The position numbers and the translations under genes were made by a program. Below, piece by piece: positions 1,218-39,034 of a DNA stretch of 40,515 bases. The DNA comes from a virus. The number at the start of each line of letters is the position of its first letter. Positions within the stretch are counted from its first letter, which is position 1. A model generated the notes under the pieces. That model did no database searches and was not told where the DNA came from. It was given only the letters and a program-made list of their open reading frames with translations. The stretch spans positions 1 through 40,515 of IMG/VR virus record IMGVR_UViG_3300032285_003308; one strand, 5' to 3'.

Positions 1218-1874
1218 TTAAGATAAAGGAATCCAGTAACCTTTATCTTGTGTTTTAAATTCAATTAATCTTTGCAATGGAACAACATCAAAAGCAATAG
1301 TCACTCTTGGCTTGTCTTCAAACCAATCATCTCGTCCATGAGGGTGTCCATTTTCACAAATAATTACTCTATTATTTATATTATGGTTTTCAAATAAAAC
1401 TTCATTGTTAATTTTATAGTATGTTATAGATGGTTCTGCGTTAACACAATAATACCCATGAAAATCTGGAGCACCTAAACCATTTAAATGATCATGTAAA
1501 AAATTTTTATTTTTAATAGGATTGACGCTATAGTGTTCAATTTTAACACTATGGTTAAACCACCCTCTAACTCTAAAGTCTTGTTCTTCATACTTAATTT
1601 CATAATAATCACAGGCTTCTTTAACACAATCTACAATTGCATTTTTTAATTTTTTAATACTTGGATGATCAAATTCAAACAAGTTATATTTTTTATTTAG
1701 TTTCATTGGTGCATCATTAAACTCGGTATATTTTTTTACTAAAAGATCTGTTAATTCATTCCACTCTGGAAGAGTATTAGTTAATATTTGTTTATGCTTG
1801 ATTTGTAAATAATCATACAATTCATTCAAATCATTATCTAATACTTTTTCAAAAAACTTATGTTCTTTTTTCAT
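1218..1874 (-). CDS. Putative 2-oxoglutarate/Fe(II) oxygenase-like protein, paralog A
   Basis: 218 residues, beginning MKKEHKFFE like its two neighbours. The C-terminal half carries LHDH, then FHGYYCVNAEPSITYY, then GHPHG and finally RVTIAFD. The order His-x-His/Asp, beta-strand, distal His and Arg followed by a strand resembles the double-stranded beta-helix of phage 2OG-Fe(II) oxygenases (PF13759-like). The likely role is oxidation of a protein side chain or small molecule; the substrate is unknown. The family call is inferred from motif order, and a non-enzymatic cupin is the main alternative. It lies 4 nt downstream of the glycosyltransferase-like gene and is probably cotranscribed with it. 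Confidence 0.6.
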   Translation of the reverse strand: MKKEHKFFEKVLDNDLNELYDYLQIKHKQILTNTLPEWNELTDLLVKKYTEFNDAPMKLNKKYNLFEFDHPSIKKLKNAIVDCVKEACDYYEIKYEEQDFRVRGWFNHSVKIEHYSVNPIKNKNFLHDHLNGLGAPDFHGYYCVNAEPSITYYKINNEVLFENHNINNRVIICENGHPHGRDDWFEDKPRVTIAFDVVPLQRLIEFKTQDKGYWIPLS

Positions 1875-1878
1875 TTTA

Positions 1879-2736
1879 TTATGAGACAGATGTTAAGTTA
1901 ACAATATATCTCTTGCCTCCAATTGTATCCAAAGATGAATGTCTATCATACTCTACATCGTTAAAATCATATGGTAGCGTATGAAGTTCTTCTAAATTAA
2001 TTTTAACATAGTTTAAAAATTTATCAACAGGAAAAGTTTTTAATTTTATCTGTGTTTTATTTAATAAAATTTTTAATACTGCATCATAGTTGTGGTTTAA
2101 AGAAAATGGAACATAACCTCTATTATTTATATCTTCACCAACATATTTGTAAAAATTGGTAGGAAGTGATTTAATTGTAACTCCATCATTTAAAAACATT
2201 AAAGAAAAATATTCATTTTGTCCATAATGCTTTAGTTCTATTGGCAAATTAATACTTGATAAATATTTAAAGTCTCCAAAAATAAATCGTCTATCTACTT
2301 GGCCTGTATCTATAATTTCAAATGTTTCTATATTTTCTCTATTAATATAAAAATTGTCACTAACTGTATTTTTATAATTACCTAAACCAGAAAATATTTC
2401 ATTTTCTTTTAAATTATTTATTAAATATGTATCCCAATTTTGTGGCAAATCTATACATTGCTGAAGCAAAAGAGCATAGTCAAAATTATTTTCTTTATGA
2501 GAATCAATACATAGTTTTGTATAGTGTAAAGGACTTAAAAACTCATCCCACCAAACAGCATTATACCTAACCTCTTTAACATCAACAAAATATTTTGCTC
2601 TTGTTAAATTATTTTGATCATCTACAAAAATATGTAAATTATTTTTACCAGAAGCATTTTTGATAAGATTTTGAATAGAGTCATATAAACTATTTTCCTT
2701 ATAAGAATGTATATGGATAAAAATATGTTTATTCAT
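1879..2736 (-). CDS. Glycosyltransferase-like protein, divergent relative of the PF11397 GlcNAc transferase
   Basis: 285 residues. The N-terminus (IFIHIHSYKENSLYDSIQNL) and the block LLLQQCIDLPQNWDTYLINNL align by eye with the enzyme encoded at 38080-39024, whose matching segments are IYVSIASYEDP and LQIDSHSFFLKGWDTNLIND. The metal-binding Asp-x-His of that family (QIDSH) is replaced here by QQCID, so activity or donor use may differ. It starts within a TAATG overlap with the oxygenase-like gene upstream, so translation is coupled. The role is inferred as glycosylation of a phage or host component; it could also be an inactive paralog. Confidence 0.55.
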   Translation of the reverse strand: MNKHIFIHIHSYKENSLYDSIQNLIKNASGKNNLHIFVDDQNNLTRAKYFVDVKEVRYNAVWWDEFLSPLHYTKLCIDSHKENNFDYALLLQQCIDLPQNWDTYLINNLKENEIFSGLGNYKNTVSDNFYINRENIETFEIIDTGQVDRRFIFGDFKYLSSINLPIELKHYGQNEYFSLMFLNDGVTIKSLPTNFYKYVGEDINNRGYVPFSLNHNYDAVLKILLNKTQIKLKTFPVDKFLNYVKINLEELHTLPYDFNDVEYDRHSSLDTIGGKRYIVNLTSVS

Positions 2737-3368
2737 TATGCAAGAGGAATCCAGTGTTGTTCTTTATCTCCACGTATTGAGTCTAGAGGCGATACATCAT
2801 AGGCTATGGTTACTCTAAACTCTTCGTTTTCCCAGTTTTGAATACCATGTGGATGTCCAGTTTCTGATAACACAGCACGGTTATTTTTGTTAATATTTGT
2901 AAACCGTTCACCATTTTCCCCACCAATTTTATAATAAGTATTTGATGGCTCAGCATTTACACAGTAATATCCATGAAAATCTGGTACGCCTCTTCCATTT
3001 AAATGATCATGAAGATAACTATCTGGTAATGGATCTGGTTTTTTATATTTATCAAAATTAAACCAACCCTGAATCATATATTTATTTGATTTAAAATTTA
3101 TACCGTAATACTCACATGCTTCTTTTGCCATATCAGAAACTGCTAAATATAAATTATAAATTTCATCATTATGAAATTGAAAAACATTATATTTAGGACC
3201 TAGATTTGTTGCTGGAGAATTATCTTTTAATTGTCCATAATCTTCAATAGATATATTAGGAATTTTTCCATCTTGAAGTTGTTGCATTTTTTCTGATAAA
3301 AAATTATTTAAAGTATTTAAATCATTTAATAAATATCTTTCAAAAAATTTATGATTAGGTTTTACCAT
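2736..3368 (-). CDS. Putative 2-oxoglutarate/Fe(II) oxygenase-like protein, paralog B
   Basis: 210 residues from the ATG at 3368, chosen because MVKPNHKFFE then lines up with the starts of both paralogs; this ATG overlaps the preceding stop (ATGGTAA). A TTG at 3380 is in frame but gives an extension the others lack. Conserved blocks are YNVFQFHN, MAKEACEYYG, LHDHLNGRGVPDFHGYYCVNAEPS, GHPHG and RVTIAYD. Closest by eye to paralog A (shared LHDHLNG). Probably part of one transcript with 1218-3985. Confidence 0.6.
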   Translation of the reverse strand: MVKPNHKFFERYLLNDLNTLNNFLSEKMQQLQDGKIPNISIEDYGQLKDNSPATNLGPKYNVFQFHNDEIYNLYLAVSDMAKEACEYYGINFKSNKYMIQGWFNFDKYKKPDPLPDSYLHDHLNGRGVPDFHGYYCVNAEPSNTYYKIGGENGERFTNINKNNRAVLSETGHPHGIQNWENEEFRVTIAYDVSPLDSIRGDKEQHWIPLA

Positions 3369-3985
3369 AGTGGTAGCCAATGCTGTTCTGGTGCACCTGC
3401 CATAACCAAAGACTTCAAAGGTACAATATCATAAGCAACTGTAATTCTTGGACCGTCCCAATCCCAATCTGCTTGAGCGTGTGGGTGACCCATTTCTGAA
3501 ACAATCATTCTTCCATCAATATTTTTATTTTCTACTTCTCTATTTGGATCATTAAAAATTCTGTAGTGTGTAGTTGATGGTTCTGCTTTTACGCAATAGT
3601 ATCCATGAAAATGAGGAGCATAAGGTCCACCATGGTCATGCCAATCTAATTTACCAGTTTTATTATGATTTATATTAAACCAACCTTGCATCATATATTG
3701 TTGTGATTTAAAATCAATTCCATAGTATTCACAGGCTTCACGCACTGTATCTCCAATAGCATGATAAAGTTTATAAATATCTGCATTTAAAAATTGAAAG
3801 ACATTATACTCTCTCCACTTTACTGTTGAAAGACTTCCAGATGCAGTCCAAAGTTCATTCTCGCCCAAAGGTTTGATCCCTGGCAAAGTTTTATTTTCAA
3901 TTCTATCATATTGGATTTGTAGATATTGTGCTAATCCAATATTATTGATGTCTAAGTTTCTTTCAAAAAACTTATGTTCTTTCAT
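3362..3985 (-). CDS. Putative 2-oxoglutarate/Fe(II) oxygenase-like protein, paralog C
   Basis: 207 residues. The start is the ATG at 3985, which has a good ribosome-binding site (AAAGGAGA) 4 nt upstream; a -10 box TATAAT sits at about 4006-4011, so this is the first gene of its own transcript. Motifs are WHDHGGP, HFHGYYCVKAEPS, GHPHAQ and RITVAYD, matching the other two copies in order and spacing. Three tandem copies within 2.8 kb indicate local duplication and divergence, perhaps for different substrates. The same caveat on catalytic family applies as for paralog A. Confidence 0.6.
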   Translation of the reverse strand: MKEHKFFERNLDINNIGLAQYLQIQYDRIENKTLPGIKPLGENELWTASGSLSTVKWREYNVFQFLNADIYKLYHAIGDTVREACEYYGIDFKSQQYMMQGWFNINHNKTGKLDWHDHGGPYAPHFHGYYCVKAEPSTTHYRIFNDPNREVENKNIDGRMIVSEMGHPHAQADWDWDGPRITVAYDIVPLKSLVMAGAPEQHWLPLW

Positions 3986-4017
3986 TTTGTCTCCTTTGTT
4001 ATAGTTATTATTATACA

Positions 4018-4755
4018 CTAAAGATAAGTCTTTTTACGCCATGCAAATTTTTTATAATATGCAAAAAGTCTAGACCTTCTATTTTCTAATTCATAATCCT
4101 TTTTTTGTATTTCTTCTGGGTCTGTAACTATTTCCATCTCCCAGTCATCTCTTTTAAATGGTACTAATTGAAATAATGGAGTGCCCCTAGGTATAGTTCC
4201 AATAAAATTCTTTTTTATAAAAATGCTTACAAAGACAGGAATACCCATAATATCAGACTCAATAATTCCAGAAGGGATAACAAATGGCAAATCATATCTA
4301 TTCATTGGGTGTGTAAGTAGTAGAGAGTATCCTGGTGGCGTTTCATAATACCAATGCATTCTAAGTCCAAAATGTATTGGGTGGCAATTTTCTGGATAAA
4401 CCATATCCATAATATACCTTTTATCCATTACTAAAAAATTTTCTCTGTCCCAAGAAATTGTTGGCTTTCCATTTGGATCAATAGATACATGAAGGTCTTC
4501 GGTAAGTCTATAAACGTACCCAGCAGTCATAGCATCTCTAAAAGGAAAACACATTTTTGTAGACACATTTGCACCATCTGTGCCCCTATCATTTACTGGA
4601 TTTAAAGTAGATACATCGTTTGTATTATAGTGTTGTGCTAAATCTTTGTACCAATCTGGAATATGTTTAATTGCTGGCTCTGGAGATAAAATATCAAAAT
4701 CTTCATAAGCCTTTAAAGATGATGGTAAAAATTTAATCTTTTTAATCAATGCCAT
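4018..4755 (-). CDS. Beta-clip (dUTPase/dCTP deaminase-like fold) protein, paralog 1
   Basis: 245 residues. The N-terminal half has KHIPDWYKDL and KMCFPFRDAMTAGY; the C-terminal half reads PGYSLLLTHP, IPSGIIESDIMG and IPRGTPLFQLVPF. The last three resemble dUTPase motifs: PG(S)S, G-[VI]-ID-[ST]-DY and IAQL. I infer a beta-clip-type domain. I recall similar phage proteins filed as DUF6065, but this is unverified. No complete catalytic set of a dUTPase is visible. It overlaps the next gene upstream by 10 bp, so the two are coupled. Function unknown. Confidence 0.5.
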   Translation of the reverse strand: MALIKKIKFLPSSLKAYEDFDILSPEPAIKHIPDWYKDLAQHYNTNDVSTLNPVNDRGTDGANVSTKMCFPFRDAMTAGYVYRLTEDLHVSIDPNGKPTISWDRENFLVMDKRYIMDMVYPENCHPIHFGLRMHWYYETPPGYSLLLTHPMNRYDLPFVIPSGIIESDIMGIPVFVSIFIKKNFIGTIPRGTPLFQLVPFKRDDWEMEIVTDPEEIQKKDYELENRRSRLFAYYKKFAWRKKTYL

Positions 4756-5465
4756 TCCTTTTTATGCCAAAAATTCTTTTTATAAAAATGAAAAAATTTA
4801 CTTCTTACCAAAACTTGTTGTATTTTTTGTTGATCTCGTGTATCTTTATGTTCTTTTATTTCACTATTCCAGGACTCTCTTTGAAATGGAATTACTTGGG
4901 CAAGAGGAGTTCCTTTTTCAATAATACCTTTAAAAGTTTTTTCTACTTTAAAAGATAAAAACCCTTCACTGATATATGTATCAGTATCAATAATTCCAGG
5001 AACAATTTCAAATGGGACAATTTCTTGATGCATAGGTTTCATAAATAAAGAACTATATCCAGGAGATGTTTTAACTGACCACATTGGATTAATTCTTAAT
5101 ACATCCTTATGATATCTATTTTCAATTGGATAAAACTCAACTTGTTCTGCCGAATGAGTTGTAAATAAATCCTTTTTCATTCCAGCCAAGGCTACAGGAA
5201 TATTATATTCAAGTTTTCCTGGATCTGTGGCATCAACATAAATATCAACTGGACAATAAATAGTATATCCTGCTGTCATAGCATCAAATACTGGCATACA
5301 TTTTTTAATTGTTGATCCAGATACACCTCTTTTTAAAAACTCATCTTTATTAACATATGCTGGTTGCTTGCGATACCATTCTGGTACATTTTTACTAGTT
5401 GGGGTAGGCAAATCTACAAAGTTTTGAGAGTTTTCACTCCAGGGATGAAATTCTATATTAGGCAT
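4746..5465 (-). CDS. Beta-clip (dUTPase/dCTP deaminase-like fold) protein, paralog 2
   Basis: 239 residues, a clear paralog of the downstream gene: KNVPEWYRKQP, KKCMPVFDAMTAGY, SPGYSSLFMKP, VPGIIDTDTY and EKGTPLAQVIPF. The GIIDTD and LAQVI pieces are the best match in the trio to dUTPase motifs 3 and 5. An AGGAAG ribosome-binding site precedes the ATG. Catalytic role unproven; context beside oxygenase and glycosyltransferase genes suggests modification or small-molecule binding. Confidence 0.5.
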   Translation of the reverse strand: MPNIEFHPWSENSQNFVDLPTPTSKNVPEWYRKQPAYVNKDEFLKRGVSGSTIKKCMPVFDAMTAGYTIYCPVDIYVDATDPGKLEYNIPVALAGMKKDLFTTHSAEQVEFYPIENRYHKDVLRINPMWSVKTSPGYSSLFMKPMHQEIVPFEIVPGIIDTDTYISEGFLSFKVEKTFKGIIEKGTPLAQVIPFQRESWNSEIKEHKDTRDQQKIQQVLVRSKFFHFYKKNFWHKKEWH

Positions 5466-5473
5466 ACTGCTTC

Positions 5474-6139
5474 CTATCTATTAACTAAACTGCCATACTC
5501 AGCAGTAAATCTATTGAACTCTTCTTGTGTCATTTTTATTTTAATATCATACATAGGAGTTCCTATCTCAATTCTACCATGTTTTTCATTTATCATATGT
5601 TCCCCATTTTTTTTGAATAAAAAATGAACAAAATTTGGTTCTAAAATATCTACATTTGTATTTATTTTATTTAAAGTTTGTTCTTTAATTACAAATGGAC
5701 AATATTCATCTGTGACTTGTAACACATTAAATTTTTTTTCAAGATCAAAGAACCAAGGTATATAAAATTTATGTGGCATAATAAAGGAATCTTTAGAAGA
5801 TAATGTTTCAAGAGATGGGTAGAATTGTCTAATATGTGGTCTATCTAAAAAATAAAACCCAACCCCAGAGTCTTTTCTTACCCAAATTTCTGCATGAGTT
5901 CTTTGTCTTAAATAAAGAAACCCGTCTTCATATTTAACAAAAGTTGGCCTTGGATATAGATTATAAGCATAATCATTGACTGGTTTTAAAATATTATTGC
6001 AAATATCTTTATTCTTTAGTATATATTGATACTCTACATATCTTCTAGAGCAGTTAGACTTATCGACTATATCTTTAAAAGACATAGCATAAGACTTAAG
6101 CCAAAAATCTGAAGGTTTAGGACTTTTATCCCCACGCAT
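5474..6139 (-). CDS. Divergent third member of the beta-clip-like family
   Basis: 221 residues. Similarity to the two neighbours is weaker but follows the same order: Trp/Tyr-rich start, YLRQRTHAEIWVRKDSGVGF, PHIRQFYP, a central strand region and C-terminal RIEIGTPMYDIKI, which corresponds to the GTPLAQ block. It begins only a few bases after the stop of the Hint-domain adhesin, so it is probably expressed with the virion genes. Function unknown. Confidence 0.45.
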   Translation of the reverse strand: MRGDKSPKPSDFWLKSYAMSFKDIVDKSNCSRRYVEYQYILKNKDICNNILKPVNDYAYNLYPRPTFVKYEDGFLYLRQRTHAEIWVRKDSGVGFYFLDRPHIRQFYPSLETLSSKDSFIMPHKFYIPWFFDLEKKFNVLQVTDEYCPFVIKEQTLNKINTNVDILEPNFVHFLFKKNGEHMINEKHGRIEIGTPMYDIKIKMTQEEFNRFTAEYGSLVNR

Positions 6140-6145
6140 TTATTA

Positions 6146-7768
6146 CTACTTATTGTGAGTAATAATGTCGCCAGCAATAATCAAGTCAACTGGCTCAGCA
6201 CTAAAGATATAAGTTGTTTTTTCGCCAGCGATGATGTCTAGGCTTTCTACAACTACTTCTTCTTGTGACCCAGTTGAAGGATTATACTTAAAGATAGAAT
6301 CTCCTGGTTCAATTTCTGCAACCATTGCAAATCTATGAGTAGATACTCCATCAACTGTTTTCTTAACAAGAATTGGATGCTCTAATGTAAACTGAGCAGA
6401 TTCATCATTATTAAAACAAACCATTTGAACTTTTGATGATTCTTCAATATCAACAATTGTTGTATCTTGATAATCAGTAAATGTTAGAGAATCTGAAGAC
6501 CATGAAAATACCTCATAATCTGGAGAAGATGGATCAATTTCAGCATATTCTATAGAAAGAACTCTATCTCCTACCTGGATATCTTTTGCTTGTTTTGCAA
6601 TAAGATTTCCTTGTGAATCTCGAAGTGTTTTCTTACCAGTTTCAGAATCTACAGACTCAGTACCTTGTCCTTGTGTAATTCTAATATATGTTTCTCCGTC
6701 AATACAACGAACGCCATACGATGTTGTAGCAAATCCATAAGGAGAGAATCCAAACACACCAAATGGTGAGAATCCAAATACTCCAAATGGCGAGAACCCA
6801 AAAACACCGAATGGGGAGAATCCAAACACACCAAATGGAGAGAATCCAAATACGCCAAATGGGGCAAACGAGAATGTTGTTGTAACTGAACCAGAATTAG
6901 AAGATATTCCTGAGTTACCATTAACATTTGTAGCATAAACATTATATGTCTGTGCTGTTCCCGCTTCTTGTGCTACAGTTGCAGAAGTTCCTGTTCCTGT
7001 ATCACCAGATTTTCCATCAGAAGATGTCCAGTGATAGTTTGTAATTGCTGAACCACCATCTGCAGGGGCTGACCAAGAAATAACATCTTGGTTTGCATTT
7101 GGAGATGATGCTGAAGGTGCTCCAGGTGTCGCTGGAACTGTTGTTGCTGTAATTGAATTTGATGCAGATGATGCAATAGATGATCCATTAGCATTACGTG
7201 CTTTAATAGTAAATGTATACGCTGTCGAAGATTGTAGACCAGTTACTGAAATTGGAGATGTTGTTCCAGTTGCAGTATATCCTCCAGGAGAAGATGTTAC
7301 TGTATAGTCAAGAATAGCAGATCCATTATCTGAAGGAGCAGTAAATGCAACATCAGCACGACCATTATTGTATGCTCGAGCAGAACCAACATCTGTTGCT
7401 GTTGGAGCAGTCATAGTCTTTGGAACTGCTGTTGCGGTGGTTGAACCTGTTGTAGATGCTTGATCAATATATGCATCATAAGGAACTACAGAGATATTAT
7501 GTGATGATCCAGTTGCTAGACCAGTAACATCTGCTGTATTTGTTCCATAAGCAACTGTTGCTTTAAGAACTCCATCAACATAGACTTTATATCCTGTAGG
7601 GGTATTTCTTACACCTGATGCTGGAGTCCAGGAAATGGTAACCTTACCATCGTTATCCGCTCTGCCCTCACTACCCTTGTCTGTTACTGAAATATTTGTA
7701 ATTTCAGAACTTGCAATAAAGTTTCCTACGGATGACGCTTTGCCACCTTTTCCCTTGCTTCTAGCCAT
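6146..7768 (-). CDS. Fibronectin-III adhesin with FGVFGFSP repeats and C-terminal Hint (intein-like) domain
   Basis: 540 residues. Residues about 20-300 are three fibronectin type III-like repeats (VTISWTPASG, VAFTAPSDNGSA, VISWSAPADGGSA), each a surface-binding beta-sandwich. About 303-345 hold five near-identical FGVFGFSP octapeptides. Residues 355-540 form a 186-residue Hint domain: N-terminal Cys in GVRCIDG, block B TLEHPI, and terminal block SAEPVDLIIAGDIITHNK with the His-Asn pair of splicing domains one residue before the end. This fits a bacterial intein-like domain able to cleave or ligate at its ends, on a virion-associated adhesin. A GGGG-containing ribosome-binding site precedes the ATG. 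The processing activity is inferred. Confidence 0.8.
   Translation of the reverse strand: MARSKGKGGKASSVGNFIASSEITNISVTDKGSEGRADNDGKVTISWTPASGVRNTPTGYKVYVDGVLKATVAYGTNTADVTGLATGSSHNISVVPYDAYIDQASTTGSTTATAVPKTMTAPTATDVGSARAYNNGRADVAFTAPSDNGSAILDYTVTSSPGGYTATGTTSPISVTGLQSSTAYTFTIKARNANGSSIASSASNSITATTVPATPGAPSASSPNANQDVISWSAPADGGSAITNYHWTSSDGKSGDTGTGTSATVAQEAGTAQTYNVYATNVNGNSGISSNSGSVTTTFSFAPFGVFGFSPFGVFGFSPFGVFGFSPFGVFGFSPFGVFGFSPYGFATTSYGVRCIDGETYIRITQGQGTESVDSETGKKTLRDSQGNLIAKQAKDIQVGDRVLSIEYAEIDPSSPDYEVFSWSSDSLTFTDYQDTTIVDIEESSKVQMVCFNNDESAQFTLEHPILVKKTVDGVSTHRFAMVAEIEPGDSIFKYNPSTGSQEEVVVESLDIIAGEKTTYIFSAEPVDLIIAGDIITHNK
6740..6870 (-). repeat. 24-bp tandem repeats encoding FGVFGFSP
   Basis: About five copies of a 24-bp unit (plus-strand core AATCCAAACACACCAAATGG) in the adhesin gene, encoding successive FGVFGFSP octapeptides just before the Hint domain. 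A shorter version of the same array recurs at about 16870-17000, again directly before a Hint domain. The units differ at synonymous positions, which points to selection on the peptide. Confidence 0.85.
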
Positions 7769-7795
7769 TGTATAACCCCTTTTCTTTTATTAAAA

Positions 7796-10735
7796 TTATG
7801 CTGATAGGTCGCCCATTACAACCCAAGTATCTGTTGCTCTCTTGAAAAGAGTTGCAGATGACCATTGAGTACGTAATTTCAAACCTGGTGTTCCATTAAC
7901 TGTTACACCTGCTGCACCAGCAATTGTTACTTGTCCAGTGTTTGTCTGGAGGATATCAATTGAGGTTCCAACTGGTAGTGCTAGAGTAGCATTTGTTGGA
8001 ATTGTAATTGTAGTTGCAGATGATGAAGAAACTTCAATCATATTATCACGTTCAGTTAGTGCTGAAAGTGTATAAGAAGCAGTCTTCTGTTGAATTGTAG
8101 TTCTTGAAGGAACGCCTTCCTTTGTTTGTGTGCCATCTGTGAAGATGATTCCTGAAGAATCCACGGTTACGCCACCTGTGAATGATGGTGCTGAAAGTGG
8201 TGCCTTTGCAGCAAATGATGCTGAAAGACCTGAGATCTTTGATTGTGCAATTGCTGCAGATGCATTAATATCTGCATCAACAATTGTTCCATCTGCAATC
8301 ATTGTTGAAGTAACTGTGCCTGAATCTGCAGTTGTCACTAATGTCTTAGATGAAGGAATTGTTGTTCCGTTAATGCTTGTTGCTGTTGCAACTCCAAGTG
8401 CAGGAGTTGTTAATGTTGGTGATGTAAGTGTTTTATTAGTAAGTGTTTGAGCAGTATTTAGATCGACAGTTGTTGCAGTATCAATTGACAATGTTGCACC
8501 AGACTTTGACAAACCAGTACCAGCATTTATTGCTTGTGCTGCGTTAAACTGTACATAGTTAATGTTATCTGTTCCGATTACGACTGTGCTTGTTCCTGAA
8601 AGAATGTATCCTGTATTTGCTGCAAGTGTTCCTGCTGTTACGAAACAGAAATCTCCTCCTGCTACTTCTCCGTTTGGATTATTATCAGCATCTGCTGCAC
8701 GAGTCATTACCCACTTAGAAGATGCTCCTCCAAGAGAAGTAATTACATAAATACCATTTTGCTTAGCATCTGTTTGTGCTTTTACAAGTACTCTATCTCC
8801 AACAGACATTGTCTGTCCATCAACAGTACCCATTGCTCCGTTTGCATCTGCTGTAAGAGTTGCTCCGTATCCATTTGTACCATTGCTGTATGTTGTTGAA
8901 ATGTTTGTGCTTGTTGCTGCCTTAACTGGTGCATGGAAGTTAATTCCAGAAGCAATGCCATCAACATAAAGTTTAGTTGCTGCATGAAGATCTGATGTAG
9001 GTGCACCTGATAGTGTAAGTGCTCCTGTCATTGTTCCGCCAGCAAGTGCCAACTTAGCATCAAGTGCTGTCTGAGTTGCTGTTGAAACTGGCTTATTAGC
9101 ATCAGATGTATTATCTACGTTTCCAAGACCAACCATTGACTTTGTTACGCCAGATACAGTTCCTGTAAATGTTGGTGAAGCAATTGGTGCGTATGTAGAT
9201 GCTGCTGTTGCTGAAGCAAGTTTTGCATCCAAGGCTGTTTGTGTTGCAGTTGAAATTGGCTTATTAGCATCTGATGTATTATCAACATTTGCAAGGCCAA
9301 CCATTGACTTTGTGATACCAGCAACTGTGCCAGTAAATGTTGGTGATGCGATAGGAGCATAAGTTGTTGCTGCTGTTGCTGAAGCAAGTTTTGCAGCAAG
9401 ATCAGATGTCAAATTTGCAACCTTAGATTGAGCAATTGCTGCTGTTGCAGAAATATCTCCATCTACGATTGTTGCATCAGCAATCTTTGCAGAAGTAATT
9501 GCTGAATCAGCGATATCTGCAGTAACAATAGTTTTATCTGCAATCTTTGCAGAAGTAATTGCAGAATCTGCAATCTTTGCTGTAGTTACATTAAGATCCT
9601 TAATCTTTGCTGTTTCGACTGCATCTGTAGCAATCTTTGCTGCTGTAACAGAACCTGCAGAAGGTGTTCTTTGATCAGAAAGACGAGAATCTGATGTATA
9701 AACAAGGTTTGCGGTATCTGTAATACCATGAACTGAAGTTGTAACTGCTGCATGGTCTGACACTGCAGTACCAACATATGTCTTTGTAGCAAGTGCAGAA
9801 GTATCTGCAATTCCATGAACATTTGTTGTTGCTGTATTGTGTGTTGAAACACCAGAAGTTACTGCATTATTAGCAAATGTCTTTGTAGCAAGATCTGCTG
9901 TATTTGCAATACCGTGAACATCTGTGGAATGTCCTGAGTGTGTATTAATTGCTGTTTGGACATCATCACCTGTTGCAAGCATTGTTGTATCTGCAATACC
10001 GTGAACATTTAAGTGATTTTGCTTGTGGGTTGAAAGATCTGTATTAAGACCACCAATATTAGAAATAAGAGTTCCTGTTAGATTTGTTGAATCTCCAAGA
10101 ACATCTGCAATTTCCTTAAGTGTATCTAATGCTGCTGGAGCAGAGTTTACAAGATCACCAATCTTGGTATCTGTATATCCTTCTGCTGTTGAAATAGCCT
10201 GTGATTTTGCAGTAGCGATTGCTGAGTTACGATTTGTAACTTCAGTTGAAATCAAGCCATCTGCATAAGACTTTGCATCATTCTTAGCAGTTGTTGCAGA
10301 TCCTGCTGCATCATAATTAGATGCAAGTCCATCTGCATAAGTTTCTGCTGCTGTAATTGCTTGAGACTTTGCTGTAGCAATTGCTGAGTTGCGGTTTGTA
10401 ACTTCTGTAGCCATGGCATTAGATACTGCAGTAGTTACTTCTGCATCAAAAGATAGTTCATCTGGAAGTTGTCCTGATGGAATCTTTCCATCTACTCCGA
10501 GAGAGGCGACTCCGCCTGCTTGACCCTTTGTTGAAATAAGAACATAGTCATCTAGAGAACCGCCAAGGTCAGCAAGGTTCTTAAATGGAGAGAGATCAGC
10601 CCAGTGGTTGACTCCATCACCAATACGAAATTCATTTGTGTCGGTTTCAAAACCGATTTCTCCTGCTGCGAGGATTGGGTTTGCATCGGTCCACTGTTGT
10701 GCAGTACCTCTGCGTTGTTGCATTCTAGTTGCCAT
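7796..10735 (-). CDS. Large tail fibre protein (Mtd-like N-terminal domain)
   Basis: 979 residues. Residues 1-50 (MQQRRGTAQQWTDANPIL, GEIGFETDTNEFRIGDG) match the N-terminal attachment domain found in phage fibre and major tropism determinant proteins. The middle is repetitive: ITSAKIAD and HGIADT motifs, and two near-identical blocks around TYAPIASPTFTGTV. A domain near 590-730 (YVDGIASGINFHAPV, GDRVLVK, NGIY) is typical of fibre shafts. The C-terminal 90 residues (LPVGTSIDILQ, WVVMGDLSA) resemble those of the 17245-17880 protein. AAGGAG precedes the start. It is the longest gene here and very likely the main receptor-binding fibre. Confidence 0.85.
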   Translation of the reverse strand: MATRMQQRRGTAQQWTDANPILAAGEIGFETDTNEFRIGDGVNHWADLSPFKNLADLGGSLDDYVLISTKGQAGGVASLGVDGKIPSGQLPDELSFDAEVTTAVSNAMATEVTNRNSAIATAKSQAITAAETYADGLASNYDAAGSATTAKNDAKSYADGLISTEVTNRNSAIATAKSQAISTAEGYTDTKIGDLVNSAPAALDTLKEIADVLGDSTNLTGTLISNIGGLNTDLSTHKQNHLNVHGIADTTMLATGDDVQTAINTHSGHSTDVHGIANTADLATKTFANNAVTSGVSTHNTATTNVHGIADTSALATKTYVGTAVSDHAAVTTSVHGITDTANLVYTSDSRLSDQRTPSAGSVTAAKIATDAVETAKIKDLNVTTAKIADSAITSAKIADKTIVTADIADSAITSAKIADATIVDGDISATAAIAQSKVANLTSDLAAKLASATAATTYAPIASPTFTGTVAGITKSMVGLANVDNTSDANKPISTATQTALDAKLASATAASTYAPIASPTFTGTVSGVTKSMVGLGNVDNTSDANKPVSTATQTALDAKLALAGGTMTGALTLSGAPTSDLHAATKLYVDGIASGINFHAPVKAATSTNISTTYSNGTNGYGATLTADANGAMGTVDGQTMSVGDRVLVKAQTDAKQNGIYVITSLGGASSKWVMTRAADADNNPNGEVAGGDFCFVTAGTLAANTGYILSGTSTVVIGTDNINYVQFNAAQAINAGTGLSKSGATLSIDTATTVDLNTAQTLTNKTLTSPTLTTPALGVATATSINGTTIPSSKTLVTTADSGTVTSTMIADGTIVDADINASAAIAQSKISGLSASFAAKAPLSAPSFTGGVTVDSSGIIFTDGTQTKEGVPSRTTIQQKTASYTLSALTERDNMIEVSSSSATTITIPTNATLALPVGTSIDILQTNTGQVTIAGAAGVTVNGTPGLKLRTQWSSATLFKRATDTWVVMGDLSA

Positions 10736-16287: not shown

Positions 16288-17238
16288 CTACTTATTGTGA
16301 GTAACAATATTTCCAGCAATAATTAAGTCTGCTGGTTCAGCACTAAAAGTGTATACAGGATCATTATTTGTAATAATATCAATTTTTTCAACAACTACTT
16401 CATTATATGAATTAGATACTGGGTCATATCTTAAAATAATATCACCTAACTCAATTTCAACAACCATTAAAAATGCCCAATGAGTTTTATCATCATTTAT
16501 TCTTTTTACTAGTATTGGATGCTCAACAGTAAACTGAGCCTCTGTATTATCATTAAAATAAATAGTTTGAGATTTATAAGACTCTTCTATGTCTACAATA
16601 GTTGTCGTTGTATGTCCAGAAAAAGTTAATTCATCAGCACCCCATGCAAAAACTTCATAGTCTGGGTAGTTAGTGTCTAGTTCTAAATATTCAGCAGATA
16701 AAACTTCATCTCCAATTTGAATATCTTTTGCTTGTTTTGCAATTACATCTCCCGCTAGATTTATTAAAACCTTTTTACCAGTTTGGCTATCTACCGATTC
16801 TGTTCCCTGACCAAGACCCAACCTGATAAATGTATCACCTGAAATACACCTTACTCCATACACAGTGGTTGAAAAACCATATGGTCCGAATGGTGGAGTA
16901 AAACTAAATACTCCAAATGGTGAAAAACCAAATACGCCAAATGGAGAAAAACCAAAAACTCCAAATGGAGAAAAGCCAAAAACAGAAAATGGAGCAACAT
17001 AATTATAATATCTTAACTCTACATTTGTTTCATAATCAACTAAAGTATCTGCTACAGGAGAAGAAATAGCAACCTTACCATTTAAATTATTATCTGCAGT
17101 GTCTACTTTAACTCCAGAAGTAGTAGTTAGTCCTGCTGCAGTAATTGCTGTTAATGCTTGGGCAGATGTCATACCTATTGTATTTGGAACCTTAACCATA
17201 CCTTTTGATGATCCCCATAGGGCTATATTAATTGGCAT
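16288..17238 (-). CDS. PASTA-domain adhesin with FGVFGFSP repeats and C-terminal Hint domain
   Basis: 316 residues. Residues about 16-83 form one PASTA-like domain (VPNTIGMTSAQALTAITAAG, VEVRL-type final strand), a fold that binds peptidoglycan or muropeptides. About 87-120 contain FGVFGFSP repeats. Residues 131-316 are a Hint domain of exactly 186 residues, the same length as in the first adhesin: CISGDTFIRL at the start, TVEHPI as block B and IIAGNIVTHNK at the end. The shared repeat-plus-Hint unit joined to different N-terminal binding domains shows module shuffling. Likely surface-binding virion protein. Confidence 0.8.
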   Translation of the reverse strand: MPINIALWGSSKGMVKVPNTIGMTSAQALTAITAAGLTTTSGVKVDTADNNLNGKVAISSPVADTLVDYETNVELRYYNYVAPFSVFGFSPFGVFGFSPFGVFGFSPFGVFSFTPPFGPYGFSTTVYGVRCISGDTFIRLGLGQGTESVDSQTGKKVLINLAGDVIAKQAKDIQIGDEVLSAEYLELDTNYPDYEVFAWGADELTFSGHTTTTIVDIEESYKSQTIYFNDNTEAQFTVEHPILVKRINDDKTHWAFLMVVEIELGDIILRYDPVSNSYNEVVVEKIDIITNNDPVYTFSAEPADLIIAGNIVTHNK

Positions 17239-19411: not shown

Positions 19412-20152
19412 CTAGATAACCGAAACATAGATAGATTTTATGACAACTGATGAATCAAAGTCTGATCTAATTTGTGGTATTGGAGCATCCCTCCACATAT
19501 CGTTATCCTCAATAAAAAAGTCTTGAGTTACTGAAATATTATATGGGAATTGATATTTAAAAGTGCCCACATATTGAGAAAATTCTTTATCACATTGTGG
19601 GAAAATAGTTCTAAACCAAATTTCTGTATTATTGCTAAAGGTTGTAATATCAAAATTATAGGTTACAAATACATGCGATCCCTCTGCTATGCCTTTAAAA
19701 TTTAATCTTTGAGAATTTGCATTCCAAAAACTTACACAGTCTTGTGGAAGGTATTTTTCATTTTTTGTTACACCCTTTAATCCCAATAATAGGCTTACCC
19801 AGCCATCATCACCTTCTGCTGCACCAAGTTTATAAGTTGAATAGTTAGAATTATGATAAGAAGCCCATCCTGCTTGTTGACCCGAAGATGAGAGAGAACT
19901 TAAACCATTTTTTCCATCAGCACCTTTATCTCCTTTAGGCCCCTTTGGACCTTCTGGTCCTATAGGTCCCTGTATGCCATCTTTACCATCTTTTCCATCC
20001 TTGCCTGATGGTCCTTGAGGTCCAACTGGTCCAGGAACTGGAAGAAACGATAAAGTATTTTCTTGATATTGTGCAGGTTGACTTTGTTGTACTTGTGCTG
20101 CATAACTAGGCTTGCTACCACCTGGAAAATCCATACTTTTAGAAACTGCCAT
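19412..20152 (-). CDS. Collagen-like tail fibre protein
   Basis: 246 residues. Residues about 38-82 are an uninterrupted Gly-X-Y run (GPVGPQGPSGKDGKDGKDG and GPKGPKGDKGADGKNG) that should form a short collagen triple helix. It is rich in Lys and in Pro at X/Y positions, possible targets for the oxygenases and glycosyltransferases in this window. The C-terminal 150 residues (DGWVSLLLGLKGV, FNFKGIAEGSH-type strands) would be a globular head. Likely a trimeric fibre. Confidence 0.8.
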   Translation of the reverse strand: MAVSKSMDFPGGSKPSYAAQVQQSQPAQYQENTLSFLPVPGPVGPQGPSGKDGKDGKDGIQGPIGPEGPKGPKGDKGADGKNGLSSLSSSGQQAGWASYHNSNYSTYKLGAAEGDDGWVSLLLGLKGVTKNEKYLPQDCVSFWNANSQRLNFKGIAEGSHVFVTYNFDITTFSNNTEIWFRTIFPQCDKEFSQYVGTFKYQFPYNISVTQDFFIEDNDMWRDAPIPQIRSDFDSSVVIKSIYVSVI

Positions 20153-25301: not shown

Positions 25302-25462
25302 TGAAAACTTGTGCCGTAATGAATTGCGATTCTACAGAACTAATCTACAGCGGTACCGACGCTTTTATGCTCGGTGGCGTTCCTACAGAAACTTATTGCT
25401 ATAAGTGTGCAACTGCTTACCTAATGATTTCTAACCATTTAGAAACTTTGGTGAACGCATAA
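25301..25462 (+). CDS. 53-residue Cys-containing protein
   Basis: Begins and ends with TAATG overlaps. CAVMNCDS near the start and YCYKCATAY in the middle make a CxxxxC...CxxC site. Unknown function. Confidence 0.65.
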   Translation: MKTCAVMNCDSTELIYSGTDAFMLGGVPTETYCYKCATAYLMISNHLETLVNA

Positions 25463-25647
25463 TGATGACTAGAAAAGACTATGTAAAGGTTGCCGATATT
25501 CTTTCGGGATACCAAAATGCTATGATTGACAATTATTGGTGGGAGGATTTAGTAAATGATTTCTGCGATTTCTTTGCGAGTGATAATCCTAATTTTAAAA
25601 AAGATAAGTTTCAAGAGGCTTGTGAAACAGTTGGAGGCAATGACTAA
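25462..25647 (+). CDS. Small acidic/aromatic protein
   Basis: 61 residues (KVADILSGYQNAMIDNYWWE, DFCDFFASDNPNFKKDKF). This resembles small actinobacteriophage proteins of unknown role by composition. Coupled to its neighbours. Confidence 0.65.
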   Translation: MMTRKDYVKVADILSGYQNAMIDNYWWEDLVNDFCDFFASDNPNFKKDKFQEACETVGGND

Positions 25648-25752
25648 ATGAATCGCTTACTCACAACACTTGTTCAACTAATGTTGATGGCACCAATTGC
25701 CTTAGCAATTAAACTTGCATATGATGAACAAAAGAAAATAAAAAACAAATAA
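25648..25752 (+). CDS. 34-residue membrane peptide
   Basis: One hydrophobic helix (LLTTLVQLMLMAPIALAI) and a Lys-rich tail; ATG directly follows the previous stop. Likely inner-membrane micro-protein. Confidence 0.5.
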   Translation: MNRLLTTLVQLMLMAPIALAIKLAYDEQKKIKNK

Positions 25753-25756
25753 AAAA

Positions 25757-25784
25757 AGATCCTGAGCATGATCTAAAACTGCTT
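25757..25784 (+). ncRNA. 3'-UTR mini-pseudoknot, copy 1
   Basis: Stem AGATC/GATCT around loop CTGAGCAT, then AAAAC and TGCTT, which can pair with GAGCA of the loop (H-type pseudoknot). Starts 5 nt after the stop of 25648-25752. Confidence 0.6.
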
Positions 25785-25802
25785 TAACTTTCAACTAAAT
25801 TT

Positions 25803-25812
25803 GGGACGTCGC
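25803..25812 (+). repeat. GGGACGTCCC palindrome, copy 2
   Basis: GGGACGTCGC; followed by GGCGTGTCG at 25818-25826 and again at 25953-25961. Confidence 0.55.
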
Positions 25813-25833
25813 ACTCGGGCGTGTCGCACTATA

Positions 25834-25849
25834 TGTGATTTAAATAACA
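25834..25849 (+). promoter_or_regulatory. CRP-like site
   Basis: TGTGA-TTTAAA-TAACA, one mismatch; about 82 bp before the start point predicted from 25889-25917. Confidence 0.4.
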
Positions 25850-25888
25850 ATTGCCACGCTCCACTATATGAGATTTTTTGGCTAGGAT

Positions 25889-25917
25889 TTGATTTTTCAA
25901 GGTTAATCAGATAGACT
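25889..25917 (+). promoter_or_regulatory. First promoter of the 26031 operon
   Basis: TTGATT-17 bp-TAGACT. Confidence 0.6.
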
Positions 25918-25963
25918 TACATAGTAAGAAAAAATAAATATTTGCCCCCTACGGCGTGTCGAA

Positions 25964-25992
25964 TTGTATTTGTCGCCTCGATAGTGTAAGAT
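25964..25992 (+). promoter_or_regulatory. Second promoter of the 26031 operon
   Basis: TTGTAT-17 bp-TAAGAT. With the first it forms a tandem pair; GGCGTGTCG abuts its -35. Confidence 0.55.
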
Positions 25993-26030
25993 ATTTATAT
26001 CAAGTTAATTAAAGAAAGAAGGTTCGCCTA

Positions 26031-26237
26031 ATGGCTACCAAACTATACACAATAGAAAACCTACTTATAGGTAAGTCATATAAGTCCCGCTCCCGATTTA
26101 TCGAGGGTTCAATTATCGAGGCTGAAAAGCGTGATGCAATTTGGTATGGAGAAAATACCGAAGCGTATCTAATCAAGGTTCGCCCTAATCGTGGAAACGA
26201 TTTCTATGCGACTATCGCAGTTAAGGTAGGTGAATAA
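26031..26237 (+). CDS. Small basic protein
   Basis: 68 residues, beta-rich (IENLLIGKSYKSRSRFIEGS, DFYATIAVKVGE). AAGAAGG ribosome-binding site. First gene of a six-gene operon (to 27222). Unknown function. Confidence 0.65.
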   Translation: MATKLYTIENLLIGKSYKSRSRFIEGSIIEAEKRDAIWYGENTEAYLIKVRPNRGNDFYATIAVKVGE

Positions 26238-26239
26238 TA

Positions 26240-26362
26240 ATGGGTTACATTGAATTTGCTAGAATAAATAATGATGGCGTGGAGTGGGTAGATTTATCTA
26301 ATGCTACTCCCGCAGAATTGCTAGATATTGAAATTGGACTATTTCAGGAAGGTGCTATCTAA
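26240..26362 (+). CDS. 40-residue protein
   Basis: MGYIEFARINNDGVEWVDLS then NATPAELLDIEIGLF. Starts 2 nt after the previous stop and ends in a TAATG overlap. Unknown. Confidence 0.55.
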   Translation: MGYIEFARINNDGVEWVDLSNATPAELLDIEIGLFQEGAI

Positions 26363-35114: not shown

Positions 35115-35609
35115 ATGTATCACATAATCTCATATCCAAGGTCTGGATCAAACTTCATTATGAAGAATCTAGAGCAGTATGTGAACATAGACAAACACCC
35201 ATATATGGAAATTTCCGACGGGATATATATTCTGGTTTTGAGGAATCCTTTGGATGCAATCGTATCTGGCTTAGTCCATAGCCACATTCGATCTGGTGAA
35301 GATATCTCTCAATTCGAACCATACCTATGGGGAGCATCTCAAACCTATACCAAACATCTACAGTCTTATGACCTATCCAAAGTTCTGGTCTATGACTTTA
35401 ATGACCTAGTATCAAACCCTATAGGGGTATTATCTACTATTGCTAATATAGAGCATCCTTTGATATTCCCCGAAAATTTAGAAGGCTCGTTAAAGGATTA
35501 TAAAATATATAAAGACCTGCATGCTTTTGCCTTAACCAAACCTCATATTTTTGATGAGCCAAATGAAGCCTATAATAAGGCAATGGCTTACAAGATTCCT
35601 GTGTTATAA
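35115..35609 (+). CDS. Sulfotransferase-like P-loop protein
   Basis: 164 residues. ISYPRSGSNFIMKNL (7-20) is the PAPS-binding phosphosulfate loop of sulfotransferases and ILVLRNPLDAIVSG (about 38-51) corresponds to the 3'-phosphate motif RDP-x2-x-S. Shorter than cellular enzymes, so perhaps a minimal or partial version. It could transfer sulfate to a surface glycan or simply be a related nucleotide-binding protein. Confidence 0.65.
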   Translation: MYHIISYPRSGSNFIMKNLEQYVNIDKHPYMEISDGIYILVLRNPLDAIVSGLVHSHIRSGEDISQFEPYLWGASQTYTKHLQSYDLSKVLVYDFNDLVSNPIGVLSTIANIEHPLIFPENLEGSLKDYKIYKDLHAFALTKPHIFDEPNEAYNKAMAYKIPVL

Positions 35610-37388: not shown

Positions 37389-37520
37389 ATGATAAAGAAA
37401 ATTTATAAGTGCAACGAGTGTAAAACCATCATTACCATTGAAACTGAGGTTCATGAACTTCCAGATTCAATCATGTGTCCATGTGATACACCTATGGAGT
37501 GGTTGGCTAAAGATATTTAA
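37389..37520 (+). CDS. FmdB-like small zinc protein
   Basis: 43 residues: YKCNECKTIITI and IMCPCDTPMEW give CxxC...CxC, as in FmdB/regulatory zinc ribbons. ATG 6 nt after TATGAT (leaderless). Its end overlaps the convergent oxygenase gene by 4 nt. Confidence 0.6.
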   Translation: MIKKIYKCNECKTIITIETEVHELPDSIMCPCDTPMEWLAKDI

Positions 37521-38068
37521 TACATTCTAAAGTTAATATCGTCTGTAAACCACATGGGTATTGCATATCTATTCTGTGTTGTTTCTTTTACTTTATGAAC
37601 AGATTTTTTATCCCTGCAATTAAAAAATACAAAGTCACACGCTTCTGGTTTATATTCTATTCCTAACTTTGGAAAAGATATTTCGCCACCAACTTCTTGT
37701 GTGTTAAGATAAATAATGCCACTGTACTTGTAGTGCATACTCATACCGCCGTCTGTATCCCTATGTGCAAGTACATTCGATCCTGGAATTTGTTTTGAAA
37801 GCCAGAGAGTGGAAAGAAATATTTCGCTGCAATCATTATGTTTATCTTTAATTAAATCAATTGCACCAAAAGCATGCTTTTTTACTAATTGTCCTATTTG
37901 TCCTAATTCATCTACTTTGCCAGTTGTGCCATTGAAATTATCTATACCAAAACGAATCAATCTTCTTTTAATTGAATCATTATTTTGATGATCATTTTGT
38001 TCTATAAAATCAATAATTAACTTAGCATCTTCTTTGCTAATAAAATTTTTTATACTAAACAATTCCAT
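37517..38068 (-). CDS. Prolyl-4-hydroxylase-like 2OG-Fe(II) oxygenase
   Basis: 183 residues. LAHRDTDGGMSMHYKYSGIIYLN carries the HxD iron ligands; GGEISFPKLGIEYKP the middle strand; HKVKETTQNRYAIPMWF the distal His and 2-oxoglutarate-binding Arg. This is the complete iron-and-cosubstrate set of a P4H-type dioxygenase, compact like phage and bacterial versions. It likely hydroxylates a protein residue. The ATG is 5 nt after TGATATAAT. It sits 11 nt from the GlcNAc transferase gene and is probably cotranscribed with it. Confidence 0.8.
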   Translation of the reverse strand: MELFSIKNFISKEDAKLIIDFIEQNDHQNNDSIKRRLIRFGIDNFNGTTGKVDELGQIGQLVKKHAFGAIDLIKDKHNDCSEIFLSTLWLSKQIPGSNVLAHRDTDGGMSMHYKYSGIIYLNTQEVGGEISFPKLGIEYKPEACDFVFFNCRDKKSVHKVKETTQNRYAIPMWFTDDINFRMY

Positions 38069-38079
38069 AATTTATTATA

Positions 38080-39024
38080 TCATTTCTCAAAATTATGTCT
38101 TACAATGTTTTTAACTTTTTCTAAATAAAATTGCTCAAATCCAAGTTCTTTCCACCAGGAGTATGGGGTTCTTTTGGCATTTAAAACTTTAAAATATAAA
38201 CTATCATTAAAAAAGAAATTATAATACATTTCTTGAGATGCTTCAAGGCTATCAGATGCAACTTCAGATGATAAACTCTTATTTAGTACATGCTTTTCAC
38301 CGTAAACTATTTGATTATAGTCTACATTGTCATGTGATATATTATTAAAGTGTTTAGTGTAATAAATATCATACCCCATTAAATATGCTATAAAACTATC
38401 ATATGTTTCTTCCATAAGCATTTCTGAAAGACCATTATATCTTTGCTCTTTAATAAAGTTTTTATCACAAAATATAAAGCCTCCAGCCATCATCTCTGCT
38501 TTATAAAATTTATTTAAAATTTTATGCTCTTCATGTCCTTCTACTTCTGTATACCAGTCAAGTCCCAATCTTTTCATTTGAGGATTTGGAGATGCCGTTC
38601 CAATTTGCCACTTATAAATAGTTTCTTTATTATAATGTCCAAGATCGGTAGATAGATATTTAGATAGGATCACTTTTTCATGAGTTAAATCTTTTAATTC
38701 TTGCAAATCATTAATAAGATTTGTATCCCAACCCTTTAAAAAAAATGAGTGTGAATCGATTTGCAAAAAATAATCATGATCTCTCATTAACATTCTGAGA
38801 ACCGATCTTGTTTTTTGTAGTCCTGGCCTATTTGATACTGATGATTCTAAACATATAATTTTGTCTGGATGCACAAAAGAAATATCTGGCTTTTCAACTT
38901 TTTCATAAAATGTAGCAATGCCAAAATAAATATCGTCTGGATTATCAGCGTTATCTAAACAACTTTTAATAGTTCTGGCAAGAAAAGGATCTTCGTACGA
39001 TGCTATTGACACATAAATGGACAT
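38080..39024 (-). CDS. PF11397-like GlcNAc transferase (Skp1-GnT family)
   Basis: 314 residues from the ATG at 39024 (a TTG at 39033 is in frame; MSIYVSIASY matches the family start better). IYVSIASYEDPFLARTIKSC, NRPGLQKTRSVL, DYFLQIDSHSFFLKGWD with the metal-binding Asp-x-His, GGFIFCDKNF, then LMEETYDSFIAYLMGYDIYY and a final His (ISHDN) follow this GT family in order. In Dictyostelium the family adds GlcNAc to hydroxyproline of Skp1, and the partner next door here is a P4H-like enzyme. Acceptor unknown. TATAAT about 8 nt upstream of the ATG. Confidence 0.8.
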   Translation of the reverse strand: MSIYVSIASYEDPFLARTIKSCLDNADNPDDIYFGIATFYEKVEKPDISFVHPDKIICLESSVSNRPGLQKTRSVLRMLMRDHDYFLQIDSHSFFLKGWDTNLINDLQELKDLTHEKVILSKYLSTDLGHYNKETIYKWQIGTASPNPQMKRLGLDWYTEVEGHEEHKILNKFYKAEMMAGGFIFCDKNFIKEQRYNGLSEMLMEETYDSFIAYLMGYDIYYTKHFNNISHDNVDYNQIVYGEKHVLNKSLSSEVASDSLEASQEMYYNFFFNDSLYFKVLNAKRTPYSWWKELGFEQFYLEKVKNIVRHNFEK

Positions 39025-39034
39025 TTGATACAAT
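39006..39034 (+). promoter_or_regulatory. Promoter of the tRNA array
   Basis: TTGACA-17 bp-TACAAT, extended -10 (TGATACAAT), with a start point about 2 nt before tRNA-Glu. Overlaps, divergently, the TATAAT of the glycosyltransferase gene. Confidence 0.75.

Follow-up and report, generated by a model that had tools for sequence, protein, structure and literature searches.

A prolyl 4-hydroxylase-like oxygenase gene beside a GT60-type transferase gene in a phage genome fragment: a possible protein hydroxylation and glycosylation pair

We analysed a lake-phage fragment of 40,515 bases from IMG/VR (IMGVR_UViG_3300032285_003308; hereafter the window), in which a gene for a prolyl 4-hydroxylase (P4H)-like 2-oxoglutarate (2OG)/Fe(II) oxygenase stands beside a gene for a PF11397-type transferase of CAZy family GT60 (Table 1). 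Both open reading frames lie where an earlier note on this DNA, made from the sequence alone, had placed them: they are on the same strand, 11 nt apart, and the transferase is transcribed first and the oxygenase second. The note's reading of the two products, a transferase with a QIDSH motif and an oxygenase with a P4H-type motif set, was upheld by profile searches, as was a collagen-like gene further along the window. The note took these genes together as a system for hydroxylating and glycosylating fibres. Records and loci of relatives are referred to below by our own labels where they have to be told apart.

Table 1. Genes of the window that are discussed in the text
Product	Position	Strand	Features
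PF11397 (GT60-type) polypeptide N-acetylglucosamine (GlcNAc)-transferase-like protein, 314 aa, ATG start	38080..39024	-	QIDSH 88-92, WD 99-100, EE 205-206
P4H-like 2OG/Fe(II) oxygenase, 183 aa, ATG start	37517..38068	-	H102xD104, H158, R167
Sulfotransferase-like protein, 1.9 kb from the pair, opposite strand	35115..35609	+	
Tail protein with fn3 domain and (FSPFGVFG)n repeats	6146..7768	-	C-terminal Hint-like domain (by eye)
PASTA protein with (FSPFGVFG)n repeats	16288..17238	-	Hint-like domain
Collagen-like tail protein	19412..20152	-	PF01391 4e-8; 15 Gly-X-Y triplets
Divergent GT60-like protein without DSH, between 2OG-fold oxygenases	1879..2736	-	PF11397 E 0.01, below cut-off; own profile 4.8e-70
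PHROG_2696 protein	1218..1874	-	2OG-oxygenase fold by homology to modelled paralogue
PHROG_2696 protein	2736..3380	-	2OG-oxygenase fold by homology to modelled paralogue
PHROG_2696 protein	3362..4018	-	Motif HDH...H...R; AlphaFold2 model, pLDDT 86.9
PHROG_7084 protein; in relatives regularly amid oxygenase genes	4018..4755	-	
PHROG_7084 protein	4746..5465	-	Weak DUF6065

The transferase matched PF11397 above the cut-off of that family (E = 5.7e-21; 75.8 bits against 21). Alignments show that it keeps the residues conserved in the family, namely the DxD-like DSH within Q88-I-D-S-H92, W99 D100 and E205 E206. An alternative possible start of its reading frame is a TTG at 39033. Characterised PF11397/GT60 members act on polypeptides (PMC6939170), and their acceptors are either hydroxyproline, as in Skp1, or mucin-type (PMC6939170, PMC8724618).

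The oxygenase carries H102-R-D104, H158 and, nine residues on, R167, with spacing as in enzymes of the prolyl hydroxylase domain (PHD) type. Across 36 relatives the iron triad of H, D and H and the basic R are almost invariant. When searched alone against Pfam, the protein scored below the curated cut-offs of both PF13661 (E = 1.5e-4; 22.7 bits against 27) and PF03171 (E = 2.7e-4; 21.7 bits against 23). The profile of the 36 relatives, compared with known structures, placed prolyl hydroxylases on top: the Bacillus anthracis P4H 3itq (9.2e-17) and P3H1 (1.5e-16), with vCPH of the virus PBCV-1 at 9.8e-15 and PHD2 at 3e-9. Tet-like structures (4.5e-6) ranked far below P4H at about 9e-17, and the match to LH3 was very weak (0.004). 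An AlphaFold2 model of the oxygenase (predicted local distance difference test score, pLDDT, 94.5) had vCPH (5c5t) as its best PDB match in Foldseek, with E = 4.8e-11 and a template modelling (TM) score of 0.69-0.71; PHD2 came second, and structures of the Pseudomonas prolyl hydroxylase (PPHD) were much lower. Because motifs, 36-member profile and model all point to prolyl hydroxylases, P4H-like is a fair label for this protein, whose target would be proline. PHROGs assigns the family to PHROG_2297 and PHROG_274 under the name "DNA endonuclease (V)". This name is apparently a misannotation, and we rejected "DNA endonuclease" on profile and structure.

The ribonucleotide reductase (RNR) fragment of the window retrieved 80 related contigs with 88-97% identity and lengths of up to 119 kb; a complete assembly measures about 115 kb in relatives. 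Its nearest annotated relatives belong to the metagenome-assembled Actinomycetia phage DSL-LC01 (59%) and to mycobacteriophages (57%), which makes an actinobacterium the likely host of the window phage. In the 49 related contigs searched, relatives of the window oxygenase are abundant, with at least one in 39 contigs and up to 10 in a single contig among the matches listed, while PF11397 is present in 14. To allow for this oxygenase density, the pairing of the two genes was evaluated against a null model in which the transferase was placed randomly among the non-oxygenase genes of the same record. The test set comprised 19 records of related freshwater-phage contigs (1.27 Mb) with 15 DSH-type transferases. 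For 7 of the 15, the next gene was a same-strand 2OG oxygenase, compared with 1.05 expected, and 0 of 20,000 draws reached 7. Oxygenase-transferase adjacency in related phages is thus about sevenfold above chance.

The pair of the window type recurs in L191, L192 and L193 (oxygenase 34-35% identical, transferase 38-39%), in L195 and in L196, with the two genes separated or overlapping by a few nt. In all of these, which represent three or more further divergent lineages, the oxygenase comes first, the reverse of the order in the window; the pair therefore formed or was rearranged more than once. A P4H and a GT60 gene are also adjacent in SAR86 bacteria, and they stand apart in G001 and G010. 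The expected co-occurrence in other phages was borne out for a 2OG oxygenase and a PF11397 transferase as adjacency above chance, and the window-type pair recurs in other lineages, but it did not hold as a fixed association: the partner often belongs to another family, and co-conservation of the pair across relatives is loose. No single open reading frame with both domains was found, and a promoter scan at the pair scored scarcely above shuffled sequences and was not used.

Among annotated phages, the window had no DNA match and its oxygenase no protein match, and the transferase matched only the jumbo phages XacN1, CM1 and RAS14 (24-27% identity), of which XacN1 has no annotated oxygenase alongside the gene. 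A single-sequence search of IMG/VR with the window transferase gave no close relatives. None of the oxygenase or transferase families was found in DSL-LC01, a freshwater actinophage; its record (L237, OQ999401, 101148-107690) has glycosyltransferase and tryptophan halogenase genes near collagen-like fibre genes, possibly another fibre-modification cassette with a different chemistry.

Outside phages, a scan of bacterial genomes with the tail-type transferase yielded 21 loci in SAR86 and other bacteria, while a scan with the transferase of the window type detected no relative in bacteria. In 11 of the 21 loci, all SAR86 or gammaproteobacterial, a genuine P4H gene is divergently adjacent to the PF11397 transferase gene (L369, L371-L373, L375-L377, L380, L382, L385 and L386; about 3.3-5.0 kb in each). 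Most of these loci have some 25-50 bases between the two start codons, and the P4H of L377 matches that of Chlamydomonas with E = 1.2e-31. The remaining ten loci mostly had no oxygenase match within 4 kb. The SAR86 pair represents a single lineage, in which cellular prokaryotes have their own version of the two Skp1 enzymes.

In many relatives of the window, the genes form a cassette that immediately follows a tail-fibre gene. Some of these cassette-side fibres consist of extreme Pro/Thr repeats, such as (TP)n, (APTPV)n and (PTPPS)n; in G001, a 503-aa PASTA protein that is the counterpart of the window's own carries a long (TP)n run and is followed by oxygenase and transferase genes. Fibres upstream of oxygenase-bearing cassettes had, at 70% clusters, a median maximum of 17 Pro per 40 aa, compared with 6.5 in those upstream of cassettes lacking an oxygenase (P = 0.0004, 0.003 and 0.06 with clustering at 70%, 60% and 50%, respectively), and Thr content did not differ (P = 0.40, 70% clusters). 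When 14 records were aligned on the collagen-like gene, which is conserved, all 8 that had a 2OG gene downstream had Pro-rich fibres, compared with 1 of the 6 that had none (Fisher P = 0.003, by hand). The window, G009 and G010, which have neither transferase nor oxygenase at the tail site, have no Pro-rich and no strongly Thr-rich fibre.

The identity of the genes, the fold and active-site motifs of their products, the above-chance adjacency and the fibre-side location in relatives are what the analysis shows, and in our estimate it is an even call whether the pair encodes consecutive steps of protein modification, hydroxylation by the 2OG oxygenase followed by glycosylation by the GT60 enzyme. 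In such a pathway, the oxygenase would hydroxylate a side chain, most likely of proline, in a phage protein, and the GT60-type enzyme would add a sugar, probably GlcNAc, to the new hydroxyl or to a neighbouring Thr/Ser; the substrates would probably be virion proteins. For the window phage we infer the proline target, the serial action and its order, the sugar and the virion-protein substrate. Across the wider group of freshwater phages, oxygenase, GT60 and radical-SAM genes make up swappable cassettes beside tail-fibre genes, and we take the window pair for a relocated cassette of this sort. On a wider and more tentative reading, freshwater phages would make mucin- or extensin-like fibres, with Pro/Thr-repeat stalks that are hydroxylated by 2OG oxygenases and glycosylated by GT60 enzymes, and with oxygenases and radical-SAM enzymes exchanged as the repeats change; the toolkit, of which the window would hold a relocated member, would then be the first phage protein-hydroxylation-glycosylation system.

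Several observations speak against the two-step reading. The window pair is located next to tRNA genes, at least 17 kb away from the fibre genes, and the window tail proteins have no Pro/Thr-rich repeats (maximum 9 Pro per 40 aa). The oxygenase found its closest relative in G001 (82-84% identical; RNR 96%), where it has no adjacent transferase and a different transferase lies 27 kb from it; in G010, which is close to G009, the transferase directly follows the methylase gene upstream, and the oxygenase is missing from the interval. The association between Pro-rich fibres and oxygenases rests on about three clades, has counterexamples (L341, L328, G045 and L343) and was not significant in independent contrasts on the transferase tree (r = 0.18-0.21, P = 0.18-0.24), and the Pro threshold in the 2x2 tests was picked after seeing the data. 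Because of the independent contrasts, we present this association as a good lead and not as proof. Finally, of 145 transferase loci, 69 had a same-strand 2OG oxygenase within two genes, 41 had a radical-SAM/SPASM gene and 10 had both, but two of the three transferase searches were seeded from known cassette-bearing loci, and 69/145 is therefore not an unbiased frequency. Dereplication at 70% transferase identity left 50 clusters, about 19 with a 2OG gene within two genes (a hand count from these partly cassette-seeded searches).

Both enzymes might instead modify proteins but act on separate residues or substrates, and be neighbours because phages of this group gather modification enzymes into exchangeable islands. 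This would fit the variety of partners of the glycosyltransferase, which range over P4H-like, HKDD-type and JmjC-type oxygenases, radical SAM, epimerase and HtrL_YibB proteins, as well as the arrays of consecutive oxygenases without a glycosyltransferase and the retention of one gene alone in G001 and in G010. However, direct same-strand adjacency at about seven times the level of random placement, with oxygenase density allowed for, speaks against separate substrates, as do the P4H-GT60 pairs in SAR86 chromosomes and the oomycete fusion indicated by the title of reference 121 cited in PMC8724618; we regard this explanation as somewhat unlikely.

A host protein as the substrate, such as a translation factor modified to redirect the host, is a less probable alternative and in our view a doubtful one. 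A bacterial prolyl hydroxylase, Pseudomonas PPHD, does act on EF-Tu (PMC7864055), the window pair lies outside the tail module amid small opposite-strand genes, and the window fibres have no Pro/Thr repeats. Against this, the equivalent cassettes of relatives directly follow fibre genes, and among the matches to the window model PPHD structures rank far behind vCPH and PHD2. It is very unlikely that the pair alters host surface glycans and so blocks superinfection: phage glycosyltransferases often change such glycans, and the G009 pair has NodZ-like and sulfotransferase genes in its neighbourhood, but polypeptides are the acceptors of the GT60 enzymes characterised to date, and at the pair we saw no partner gene of a membrane or lipid-linked kind. 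Phage oxygenase-transferase sets that hydroxylate and then glucosylate a base also exist, and the PHROG label "DNA endonuclease" and the Tet-like structures far down the profile list could be read in favour of such DNA or nucleotide hypermodification here. We consider it highly improbable, since prolyl hydroxylases are the best matches by many orders of magnitude, the oxygenase is not closest to TET/JBP, and characterised PF11397 members use polypeptides (PMC6939170).

If the two enzymes act in series on fibres, tailed phages would equip their virions with chemically elaborate modifications that need oxygen, comparable to those of collagen, mucin and extensin in animals and plants, and the many 2OG oxygenases of aquatic phages would acquire a function. 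The best structural match to the window oxygenase, vCPH of PBCV-1, is likewise a viral enzyme, but it comes from an algal virus and is only 15-16% identical; we know of no GT60 gene adjacent to it. The mucin-type polypeptide alpha-GlcNAc-transferases of Trypanosoma cruzi and Dictyostelium belong to the same CAZy family GT60 and have Thr/Ser/Pro-rich acceptors that resemble the fibre repeats of the relatives, whereas they are eukaryotic Golgi enzymes that need no hydroxylation. The closest parallel in enzyme classes is the Skp1 pathway of Dictyostelium, Toxoplasma and Pythium, in which a P4H/PHD-like oxygenase, PhyA, makes the hydroxyproline that the GT60 enzyme Gnt1 needs (PMC6939170, PMC8724618). 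For Pythium, the title of reference 121 in PMC8724618 reports both activities in one protein. The phage genes are separate and adjacent, no Skp1 and no later pathway enzymes accompany them, and relatives swap the P4H for other oxygenases. A known chemistry of protists, prolyl hydroxylation followed by GlcNAc addition, would be met in an unexpected place, a phage, with hydroxyproline-GlcNAc itself as a possible product. Mimivirus is a virus whose own collagen is modified by a collagen lysyl hydroxylase and a collagen glucosyltransferase (PMC8968730, PMC9546862), but this transferase is of another family and acts on hydroxylysine. Viral use of P4H has been called "cryptic" (PMC9301287). T4-like cyanophages resemble the present phages in having several 2OG oxygenases per genome; no GT60 pairing is described there, and the suggested roles are nitrogen metabolism or DNA repair (PMC3037559).

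Within the window, the best candidate substrates would be the two tail proteins with (FSPFGVFG)n repeats. The Hint-like C-termini of both end in HNK, and similar tail proteins of relatives carry (GAF)n or (TP)n repeats. The idea that the modification serves fibres gained from the Pro/Thr-repeat fibres upstream of the relatives' cassettes, whereas the earlier note's choice of the collagen-like protein as the target fared poorly, and we regard that protein as an unlikely substrate. Seven Pro stand at X in its Gly-X-Y triplets but not one at Y, whereas a collagen-modifying viral system of the mimivirus or PBCV-1 type would call for hydroxylatable residues at Y and for a protein that tracks the enzymes. 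It does not track them: Gly-X-Y homologues occur in nearly all records, with or without the pair, and even in G018, where a PF11397 gene is lacking. The relatives' cassettes are not next to the collagen-like gene; they lie a few genes further on, after a different, Pro/Thr-repeat fibre gene. Since Lys occurs in Y, the collagen-like protein might undergo lysyl hydroxylation.

At tail loci, the partner of the transferase is often a 182-190-aa protein of the HKDD family, which a comparison of profiles connects with the oxygenases (95% probability, E = 3.6e-8), and sometimes a JmjC-like protein; many loci have radical-SAM/SPASM genes in place of a P4H-like gene. Where radical-SAM/SPASM genes stand beside GT60 (G015 25339-26274, G025 99325-100329, L311, L299 and L351), the fibres are mostly Thr-rich, not Pro-rich. 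The pair of G009 (3830-8868; L156) is flanked by RsmI-like methylase, methyltransferase, sulfotransferase-like and NodZ-like genes. In the window, the sulfotransferase-like protein might perhaps provide a later modification step.

The window also holds a second example of a GT60-like gene among oxygenases, at 1218-4018, where the gene stands between genes for PHROG_2696 proteins. For the modelled PHROG_2696 protein, all Foldseek matches in the PDB with E<=0.001 were 2OG oxygenases or the uncharacterised 3bvc/2rg4, and the model indicates that PHROG_2696, listed under "unknown function" in PHROGs, has a 2OG-oxygenase fold. Five to eight oxygenase genes are interleaved with PHROG_7084 genes in L219, L222, L224, L226, L228, L231, G033, G025 and G045, and PHROG_7084 is clearly tied to oxygenases in freshwater phages.
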